From positions 2,480,001 to 2,544,000 of the forward strand of contig NZ_CP054587.1 in NCBI RefSeq assembly GCF_002025255.2: a stretch of DNA of 64,000 bases, given 5' to 3'. Made by a program: the position numbers and the translations under genes. Under the pieces are notes generated by a model. It was not told where the DNA came from. It saw only the letters and a list, made by a program, of their open reading frames with translations, and did not search any database. This DNA is from Halolamina sp. CBA1230. Its GTDB lineage: Archaea; Halobacteriota; Halobacteria; Halobacteriales; Haloferacaceae. Positions 22,905 through 63,535 of the stretch are shown piece after piece; within the stretch, counting starts at the first letter, position 1; the number at the start of each line of letters is the position of its first letter.

Positions 22905-23161
22905 CGCGCCGTCTTTGGGCTACGCACAGCCACGGCGTCGTCTCCGTGGCTGGCGCCCGGAGGTCGTCACCAGAACGCGTCGCGTTCTGGTTGGCAGACG
23001 AGAGCGACGCTCTCGTCTACGCCAGCAGGTCGTGCGCCGTGGCTGGCTACACAAAGGCACGGCATACGCTCCGTCGCGACAGCACGGAGGTCGTCGGCGG
23101 TCGCGCGCCGTTTGGGGCTACGCACAGCCACGGCATAGGCTCCGTGGCTGGCGCCCGGAGG
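22905..23161. repeat. Palindrome-rich intergenic repeat cluster
   Basis: The 408-bp gap between pus10 and the next gene contains three related segments: about 22905-22965, a diverged copy at about 23031-23095, and 23104-23161. The two good copies share ggctacgcacagccacggc followed by tccgtggctggcgcccgga, which can fold (ccacgg against ccgtgg). No coding frame is convincing on either strand. Confidence 0.75.
22966..23018. repeat. Double-palindrome module, copy 1
   Basis: Two perfect palindromes in tandem, ccagaacgcg-t-cgcgttctgg and gacgagagc-gac-gctctcgtc, separated by ttggca. The same layout recurs at 63061-63113 with compensating changes in both arms, which means the fold, not only the sequence, is kept. 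Confidence 0.8.
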
Positions 23162-23189
23162 CGCCAGCCGGTCGCGCGCCGTGCCTTCG

Positions 23190-23498
23190 TTACGGCGGCC
23201 CGGTTCGTAACTCCACCTCCACGTCACTGACGCCGAACCGCTCCTCCAACCGCGTGCCGACGTCGCCCGTGTCGTCGACCAGCAGCGACGCCGAGACGTT
23301 GACCGTCAGGTCGTTCAGGCCGGGACGGATGCCTTCGAGGTCGACGGCCTCGACGGTGTCGACGCCGTCGGCGTCGCCGAGGCGGTCGCGGACCCCGGTT
23401 TCGAGGTCGCCGGCAGCGTTTCGTGGGACGCTCACTGTACAGGTCACGCCGATGGGCTGGCGGCGAACCGCCGAGCCCTCGGAGCTTTTGGTGCTCAT
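23190..23498 (-). CDS. Conserved-looking hypothetical protein
   Basis: 102 aa starting MSTKSSEGSAVRRQP. Alternating strand/helix pattern: IGVTCTVSVPRNAAGDLE, VEAVDLEGIRPGLNDLTVNVSA, and VGTRLEERFGVSDVEVELR. This looks like a small alpha/beta sandwich, but I do not recognise a family. Acidic composition and codon use match the neighbours, so it is probably real. It ends beside the palindrome cluster; its promoter would lie in the structured gap at 23499-23921. Confidence 0.6.
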   Translation of the reverse strand: MSTKSSEGSAVRRQPIGVTCTVSVPRNAAGDLETGVRDRLGDADGVDTVEAVDLEGIRPGLNDLTVNVSASLLVDDTGDVGTRLEERFGVSDVEVELRTGPP

Positions 23499-62890: not shown

Positions 62891-63060
62891 CCGAACCGGC
62901 CTGTCCACCGGACACGTGCGGGATAGGAATGGTGAGTCCCTGTGTTAACTAAGCAATAGCTACCTGCCAGACGTTTCGCTTCCACCGCTGGGGAATCGAA
63001 CACGGCTGCGAGGAGAGAACGATTTTCTGGCAGTCGTTCTCGGATCGCGGTTCCCTCGTC
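62891..63060. other. Gene-free stretch at start of the repeat region
   Basis: Between the VOC gene and the palindromes. It is mixed in GC, contains ctgtgttaactaagcaatagc and no credible ORF or RNA gene. It forms the left part of an 880-bp gene-free interval up to 63771. Confidence 0.5.
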
Positions 63061-63113
63061 GTCATCAGAACGCAGCGCGTTCTGATTGGCTCACGAGAGC
63101 AAAGCTCTCGTGA
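63061..63113. repeat. Double-palindrome module, copy 2
   Basis: tcagaacgc-agc-gcgttctga and cacgagagc-aaa-gctctcgtg, separated by ttggct: the same two-hairpin layout as 22966-23018. Differences between the copies (cca/tgg versus tca/tga; gac/gtc versus cac/gtg) change both arms together, which preserves pairing. Confidence 0.8.
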
Positions 63114-63150
63114 ACGCTGTCGCTCCTCACTCACTTGTTCGCGGAAGAAG

Positions 63151-63174
63151 CGCCCGGAGCGGGATTTGAACCAC
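63151..63174 (-). repeat. tRNA-Asp 3'-tail-like repeat, copy 1
   Basis: On the minus strand this reads the T-arm 3' part and acceptor end of a tRNA-Asp (ttcaaatcccgc then tccgggcg). No 5' half of a tRNA is attached. About 70 bp upstream on that strand an inverted gggatttgaa (63208-63217 on the complementary reading) could pair with it. Confidence 0.7.
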
Positions 63175-63245
63175 GGTCGGACGTGCTCGCTCACTTCGTT
63201 CGCTGCCCACGACCTCCCTGCTTCAAATCCCTTCGTCGGCGTTTC

Positions 63246-63298
63246 GTTGCGACCGGACTCGCGCCTCGCAAGCTCGGCGCTCGTCGGTTGGTCGCAAC
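63246..63298. repeat. Inverted repeat between tRNA-tail copies 1 and 2
   Basis: gttgcgacc at 63246-63254 is the exact complement of ggtcgcaac at 63290-63298, enclosing gcgcctcgcaagctcggcgc, itself partly palindromic. It directly abuts copy 2. Confidence 0.7.
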
Positions 63299-63304
63299 AG
63301 AAAG

Positions 63305-63328
63305 CGCCCGGAGCGGGATTTGAACCAC
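63305..63328 (-). repeat. tRNA-Asp 3'-tail-like repeat, copy 2
   Basis: Identical over the 24 bp to copy 1, spaced 154 bp from it. Again no 5' tRNA half. An inverted partial match (gggttcagaatccc, about 63353-63366) lies beside it. Confidence 0.7.
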
Positions 63329-63380
63329 GAGAACTCGCTACACTCGTTCTCTGGGTTCAGAATCCCTCGTGGTCGTTTCG

Positions 63381-63432
63381 CTGGACTCAGGGCTCGCTCG
63401 AAGCAAGCTTCTCGCTCGCCAGTTGAGTCCAG
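63381..63432. repeat. Inverted repeat between tRNA-tail copies 2 and 3
   Basis: ctggactca at 63381-63389 is the complement of tgagtccag at 63424-63432, with gctcgctcgaagcaagcttc in the loop. Same architecture as the 63246-63298 repeat but unrelated arm sequence, so the structure is what recurs. Confidence 0.7.
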
Positions 63433-63439
63433 CAGAAGA

Positions 63440-63535
63440 CGCCCGGAGCGGGATTTGAACCCGCGTCACAACCGTGACAGACGGCAGCTCACTTCGTTCG
63501 CTGTCGTCGGACTATGACGGCAACATCATCCGGGA
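63440..63535 (-). pseudogene. Degenerate tRNA-Asp (GTC)
   Basis: The minus strand has an anticodon loop ctgtcac (GTC, Asp), variable tgac, T-arm gcggg-ttcaaat-cccgc and acceptor tccgggc with discriminator G. The 5' acceptor tcccgga pairs at six of seven positions. The D-arm (tgatgttgccgtca) lacks about five loop bases, and about 20 bases (gacagcgaacgaagtgagct) are inserted in the 5' anticodon stem, so that stem cannot form normally. A TATA-like gtttaagac lies upstream. An intron is less likely, since it would normally sit 3' of the anticodon. Confidence 0.55.

Follow-up and report, generated by a model that had tools for sequence, protein, structure and literature searches.

Two places in a 64,000-nucleotide stretch of the Halolamina sp. 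CBA1230 genome (hereafter the window) carry copies of one interspersed repeat, in which a body of the form TCA-hairpin 1-TGGC-hairpin 2-A stands between two CG dinucleotides. Units of this kind are interspersed through the order to which the organism belongs, are present or absent at exact points, mostly between two CGs, and keep both hairpins paired while the inner arms and loops change. We regard the element as probably a non-autonomous mobile DNA repeat of haloarchaea, arranged as a head-to-head dimer of tagged REP palindromes, which would depend on a mover acting in trans and on palindrome-restoring repair.

The two modules in the window (about 22966-23021 and 63061-63116) each consist of two perfect 23-nt palindromes, with arms of 11 and a loop of 1 in copy 1 and arms of 10 and a loop of 3 in copy 2 (Table 1). 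The original prediction had described two hairpins in the same order at both loci, separated by ttggc, with arm changes occurring in pairs. Both points hold, except that the linker, counted outside the stems, reads TGGC in both copies, the first T of ttggc being the last base of hairpin 1. The paired changes from copy 1 to copy 2 are C.G to T.A in hairpin 1 and AG..CT to TC..GA in hairpin 2. Within the window, exact matches to each hairpin pattern are confined to copies 1 and 2. When up to three mismatches are allowed, each hairpin has three window matches, against chance expectations of 0.60 for hairpin 1 and 1.33 for hairpin 2; since 2 and 15 of 100 shuffles, respectively, also reach three, the count for one hairpin alone is not decisive. 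The decisive evidence is the exact hairpin pair in the same order, together with the further genomic copies described below.

Table 1. Positions of the two element copies and of the repeat array around copy 1, numbered along the window.
Feature	Position	Strand	Remark
CG, left border of copy 1	22965..22966	+	target or tag dinucleotide; CG repeated on right
Copy 1, element body (TCA-H1-TGGC-H2-A)	22967..23019	+	
Hairpin 1 of copy 1	22969..22991	+	
Hairpin 2 of copy 1	22996..23018	+	
CG, right border of copy 1	23020..23021	+	
CG, left border of copy 2	63060..63061	+	
Copy 2, element body	63062..63114	+	
Hairpin 1 of copy 2	63064..63086	+	
Hairpin 2 of copy 2	63091..63113	+	
CG, right border of copy 2	63115..63116	+	
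Array of ~71-bp nested palindromic units housing copy 1	22914..23190	+	same-place arrays in G132, G210, G294, G295
Unoccupied paralogous unit of same array (GGCTGGCGCCCGGAGGCGCCAGCC)	23112..23190	+	90% identical over 70 bases to joined flanks of copy 1

Both copies lie next to other complex repeats, as had also been noted: copy 1 within the 71-bp array, and copy 2 beside a region at 63148-63470 that resembles tRNA 3' ends. The units of the array have a TTCCGT..ACGGAG-like core plus a variable palindrome of 8-10 bp, the arms of which change together between units and congeners (L172, L174, L175, L178; read by eye), and the two stems of a unit overlap in a pseudoknot-like manner. Beside copy 2 there are three tRNA-3'-end-like copies (CGCCCGGAGCGGGATTTGAACC) with palindromic inserts between them; no tRNAs were called at 63148-63470. 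Strong congener matches in this region are confined to 63275-63480, and a piece near 63161-63231 matches many other places.

Within the 3.47-Mb genome of CBA1230, a 64-base query gave 58 aligned stretches, a number that includes opposite-strand palindrome matches. A covariance model built from 23 own-genome copies found no fewer than 42 places with a score of 50 bits or higher, two of which overlap slightly; the figure is a lower bound, as 150 of 4437 candidates were scored. In a sample of the order that counts the own genome, 260 of 293 genomes gave a match at E <= 0.001, with 15 candidates scored in each. At the stricter cutoff of E <= 1e-8, matches came from 74 of 392 genomes across the phylum, each of them within the order of the window; here 11 candidates were scored per genome, a depth at which weak copies outside the order could escape. 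Numbers differ widely among congeners: at E <= 1e-8 on both strands there are 62 matches in the own genome, 51 in G132 and 102 in G296, versus 15, 10, 6 and 5 in the others. The exact pattern occurs in at least 120 stretches of named genomes, and the genera among the matches listed include Halorubrum, Halolamina, Natronocalculus, Halogranum, Halobellus, Halostagnicola, Natronosalvus, Halarchaeum, Halopenitus, Haladaptatus, Halocatena, Halovenus and Halobaculum. Copy 2 matches 35 plasmid records, all from haloarchaeal genera, and has no match in a phage collection of 50,697 records.

Most counts on the anatomy of the element come from 191 copies, 125 of which come from 120 public loci retrieved by a pattern that fixed the outer arms, the linker and the GTC/ACG borders; because of that pattern, conservation in the public loci, the CG count included, is partly imposed. 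The left part of the consensus reads CG-TCA[C/T]CAGAA-inner arm-loop-inner arm-TTCTG[G/A]TTGGC-NN and the right part continues ACGAGA-inner arm-loop-inner arm-TCTCGT-NN-A-CG. The body, counted from TCA to A, measures 51-57 bp, with 184 of the 191 copies at 53 or 55 bp. Its constant pieces, which we call feet, are TCA, TTRGC and A. Viewed from both ends, the element consists of two hairpins that each carry an outward-facing CGTC or CGTY tag, with TTRGC as the inner linker. The left tag is CGTC in 163/191 copies (125/191 being from loci fetched with the pattern fixing GTC); the right tag is CGTT in 140/191 and CGTC in 41/191, hence one of the two in 181/191. Stems are about 10 bp long. The first pair of hairpin 1 is A.T in every one of the 191 copies and the second is C.G or T.A, while hairpin 2, read from its own tag, begins otherwise in many copies. 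In 21 of the 23 aligned own-genome copies, hairpin 1 is followed by a TGGC tail. Inner segments are of odd length, giving loops of 3 or 1, in 190/191 copies for hairpin 1 and 188/191 for hairpin 2. The two ends of the element are weakly alike when read by eye.

Double hairpins were also collected by architecture only, and 54 of these 246 fail a letter test for CAGAA/CGAGA. Some of the 54 are reverse readings of ordinary copies or have one changed arm base; L013, L021, L168 and L169 have other arms and the same feet, L168 comprising three such units in tandem. Half-module matches at 195124, 1321432 and 2324946 were considered as possible transposon ends; the one at 2324946 was rejected, being on reading an unrelated palindrome. 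An outer stem closing a three-way junction, formed by the bases outside CGT/ACG, was suspected at first, as each of the three outermost pairs forms in 11/23 cells, and was likewise rejected: in 64 non-redundant copies, one of ten positions (-10/+8, p 0.0075) lay above shuffles, and there were 5 runs of at least three outer pairs versus 4.0 expected. CGT..ACG is a border with no covarying stem.

Comparison among congeners revealed occupied and uninterrupted versions of the same sites. At L024 in the own genome the element splits a gene that we take, from its reading frame, to be of the glyoxalase type; orthologues in G132, G296 and G293 are gapless across the junction, and in G210, G294 and G295 the match is limited to the part right of it. 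At L059 in Halolamina salifodinae (G296), a net 55 bp separates LLTNDD from GIDAPG and splits surE. The gene is uninterrupted in G293 and G132, the joined L059 product is SurE by Pfam, and the other four genomes gave no match to the locus at E <= 1e-15. At the locus of copy 1, the array holds the element in the own genome and in G132, the arrays of G210, G294 and G295 are without it, and there is no array in G296 (gap of about 84 bp) or in G293, where another stretch of coding appearance, which looks like a DMT-type transporter gene (L176/L182), replaces it. No empty site is readable at the locus of copy 2, because strong congener matches (E below 1e-30) begin at window position 63275 or further right. 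Elsewhere, the element lies in an ABC transporter gene whose frame is long solely with the element removed (L058) and in a shikimate dehydrogenase gene whose frame is open with or without it (L077). Copies can be lost as well as gained, and absence does not always equal an empty site. By these alignments, the element is an insertion, mobile in the evolutionary sense. The earlier suggestion that the module might be a transposase target is thus turned around, since at sites uninterrupted in sister species the module is itself the inserted piece.

CG is found on both sides in 160/191 copies, a count partly imposed by the fetch pattern of the public loci. The gain per insertion is one CG, for which a 2-bp duplication and an element-borne CG are indistinguishable. 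The copy at L024 is bordered by GG on its left and CG on its right. The corresponding site in G132, the closest relative, is GAGGAT, as would be expected if the GG came from the target and the right CG from the element, with no target duplication; in G296 it is GACGAC, which fits a duplicated CG.

The GAGGAT site bears on another possible origin, in which the hairpins would be the left end and the right end of an IS200/IS605-type transposon, fused into a PATE-like relic that is moved by the TnpA of that transposon. Insertion without target duplication would suit it, as would the lack of a clear terminal inverted repeat and the existence of terminal-only PATEs of 52 bp in Haloquadratum, described in the part of that paper considered here (PMC3119063). 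We nevertheless find this origin unlikely. The 18 TnpA loci of the genus held three single tagged hairpins and no outward dimers, and several genomes rich in the element lack TnpA (PF01797) or have it only in fragments: G044, G004, G104 and G245 have no TnpA match at E <= 1e-5 yet contain 9-13 copies among 15 candidates scored, and G293 has 15 element matches and no TnpA match. On the same grounds TnpA was rejected as the mover, several element-rich genomes having no match to it. The loci searched contained no convincing gene-bearing version either; the sole weak candidate for such a "REPtron", L086, was discarded, as its two halves do not match each other.

Pairing is maintained in both hairpins. 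Among the 23 own-genome copies, 90.4% of cells are paired, as compared with 32-42% when partners are slid. In the same copies 56 cells are changed on both sides versus 24.4 +/- 3.4 in shuffles, with none of 500 shuffles reaching 56; these copies were collected for their resemblance to the copy in the window, and their relatedness inflates the shuffle test. "Further pair types" showed no excess over shuffles in the 23 copies (219/500 reach the observed value). The inner arms vary greatly, with CGC, ATC and CTC in hairpin 1 and GC, GCC, ATC, CGC, GTC, CAC and ACC in hairpin 2. Among 1047 inner pairs from the 191 copies, 1011 are Watson-Crick, 15 are G-T and 21 are mismatches. The expectation that the fold is kept is upheld by these counts; copies differing freely without regard to pairing were not what we found.

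The loops also carry a signature. When each loop is assigned 3 nt, its sequence is RRA or the complement TYY in 155/191 copies for hairpin 1 and 138/191 for hairpin 2, as compared with 222/665 other hairpins with arms of at least 7 (a set in which divergent element copies are unmasked) and 80/907 four-pair hairpins from 40 loci. GNA loops form very stable DNA mini-hairpins. The loops are found in both orientations, and in both of the two orthologous copy pairs identified the hairpin 1 loop is reverse-complemented. Between the own genome and G132 at the locus of copy 1 the loops are GTC and GAC, a change that one central substitution would also give; between G132 and G296 they are TTC and GAA, with TTT and TCT in hairpin 2.

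Strong pairing covariation would also be produced by a structured RNA, with the fold kept as a 3'-UTR stabilizer, as a regulatory RNA or within the guide RNA of TnpB. Selection on RNA would be expected to leave more G-T pairs than mismatches, and the opposite is seen in the element. As the inner pairs are Watson-Crick with few G-T, the pattern points to the DNA rather than the RNA level. The original prediction had ascribed the kept fold to selection or gene conversion, either of which may apply; the inverted loops of orthologous copies and the low number of G-T pairs speak for a process acting on DNA. The element is most likely kept palindromic at the DNA level. An RNA function is also at odds with the occurrence of both loop orientations, with the interruption of protein genes by copies and with the absence of any Rfam match in the window at gathering scores. 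The genomic setting lends it some support, in that a TnpB-type zinc-finger motif precedes 10 of the 132 copies in public loci by no more than 240 bp (identified by a signature other than the strict CxxCG, which missed most copies). The 3' coding end of tnpB overlaps TnpB guide RNAs, and hairpins at that end may be part of a TnpB guide RNA. As an account of the element as a whole we judge an RNA function very unlikely.

One tnpB lineage in several genera accounts for nine of these ten copies and has the element at its 3' coding end (L032, L069, L109, L118, L125, L127, L135, L138, L147). L069 and L108 have the TnpB-type domain PF07282 by Pfam, and the frames at L069, L108 and L109 stay open whether or not the element is included.

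A bidirectional transcription terminator had been another suggestion of the original prediction, and it is the least probable of the alternatives, to the point of being hardly tenable. Two hairpins would suit a terminator, and the element is often outside annotated genes: 34 of the 35 best plasmid matches are under no annotated feature, the 35th record having no annotation, in a gene table that is incomplete. Two of these plasmid matches (L315, L319) nevertheless lie in open frames, ahead of a DDE transposase domain (PF13610), and other copies are inside genes. In all 191 copies the 12 nt that follow each stem are free of TTTT on both strands, so that the element does not qualify as an intrinsic terminator.

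Returning to a mobile repeat moved in trans, we envisage a transposase that would ignore the arm sequence and recognize instead TCA, TTRGC and A, the conserved feet, together with both hairpins in their folded form. A structure-reading transposase acting in trans seems the likeliest mechanism, given that the feet, unlike the arms, are constant. It would insert the unit next to a CG, such that one CG of the bordering pair would be target-derived. Hairpin-templated repair or cruciform exchange could then answer each arm change with the complementary change in the opposite arm and could invert the loops, which would allow the arms to drift and yet remain palindromic. Neither live transposition nor a moving enzyme was seen in the material analyzed. 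A bolder version, which we put forward tentatively and hold to be rather doubtful, is that REP-type dimers throughout the haloarchaeal order share a mover that reads the fold and the three feet, not the arms, that the arms mutate freely under DNA-level restoration of the palindromes, and that the mover is an unrecognized enzyme other than TnpA, which may act on bacterial CGTC REPs as well.

Many copies are found within longer repeats. The own genome has a longer composite repeat with a GGGGGGAGGGGTGGGGA-like flank that carries the element (L003, L005, L009, L022, L023, L027, L028, L151-L153, L156, L157, L160, L162), and some alignments have another variable palindrome at the matching place. 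Throughout Halorubrum (L031-L150), many loci have the element within a longer repeat of the form GGTGCTTACGTC-element-CCTGCGCCC...CTGCCCCTTTGA. In much of the family the element thus rides in larger repeats, which may move as a whole. Host sites that are themselves palindromic were recognized by eye at the locus of copy 1, L007, L010-L013 and L113/L122, and the insertions at L113, L122 and L080 are apparently in what we take to be IS605-type end hairpins. Insertion into palindromes as a rule was rejected, with a score of 4.21 versus 3.89 +/- 0.15 and a maximum of 4.36 in permutations (58 non-redundant flanks, 300 permutations).

The family occurs in many haloarchaea and has exact unoccupied sites, so that the question of what moves such repeats becomes open to test. 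Palindrome repair in DNA may have left a natural record in the pairing, with its few G-T intermediates, and in the loops that are inverted between orthologous copies. The element also serves as a warning that covariation alone is no proof of a functional RNA.

MITEs have terminal inverted repeats in common with a DDE transposon and duplicate their target; the two ends of the element are weakly alike by eye, and the loci searched held no parent transposon. No published description of the element was recognized from titles and the starts of abstracts in the part of the literature covered. Among haloarchaeal repeats, SMR-A of Haloquadratum walsbyi is about 110 bp long, has prominent inverted terminal repeats and strongly prefers palindromes of IS605-type elements and PATEs; the mobilization of haloarchaeal SMRs was termed enigmatic (PMC3119063). 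SMR-A and the element are both short, coding-free, haloarchaeal and in some cases sited in palindromes, but the element, at about 55 bp with weakly similar ends and two internal hairpins, is set apart from SMR-A by description. With PATEs, one form of which matches it closely at 52 bp, the element shares near-terminal palindromes and the lack of a clear terminal inverted repeat (PMC3119063). PATEs share their ends with IS605-type transposons, whereas no such parent was found for the element at the 18 TnpA loci of the genus and its arms are hypervariable.

Alternating REP hairpins form the dispersed unit in REPINs and BIMEs, which are associated with RAYT transposases, as they do in the element (PMC3116915, PMC2817692); TnpA-like endonucleases have been surveyed (PMC6006769). 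RAYT-linked REPs are GTAG-tagged (PMC3733652). No RAYT-like TnpA was seen at the ends of the element in the TnpA loci of the genus. The closer parallel is with the CGTC-tagged REPs of Di Nocera et al. (2013, PMC3733652), which are bacterial, occur in five phyla mostly as head-to-head dimers, and are reported to lack a dedicated transposase; in the portion of that paper considered here, the word "archaea" is confined to the reference list. They are defined by an unpaired CGTC (or TGTC/CCTC) at one end of a 20-40 bp palindrome, the stem being 8-9 bp long and opening with two A/T pairs (PMC3733652). The element has in common with them the unpaired outer CGTC on a short palindrome, head-to-head pairs with the tags outside, a first stem pair of A.T, complementary stem changes, no transposase of its own, and some units inside genes and other palindromes (PMC3733652). 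The two differ in the loop, which is 4-5 nt in the CGTC REPs and 3 nt or less in the haloarchaeal element, and in the tail, which is mostly CCA in the former as opposed to a TGGC/TTRGC linker in the latter (PMC3733652). The haloarchaeal element thus resembles the CGTC REPs in the way it works, a resemblance that need not imply descent, and we read it as a new haloarchaeal variant of REP-type miniature mobile DNA.
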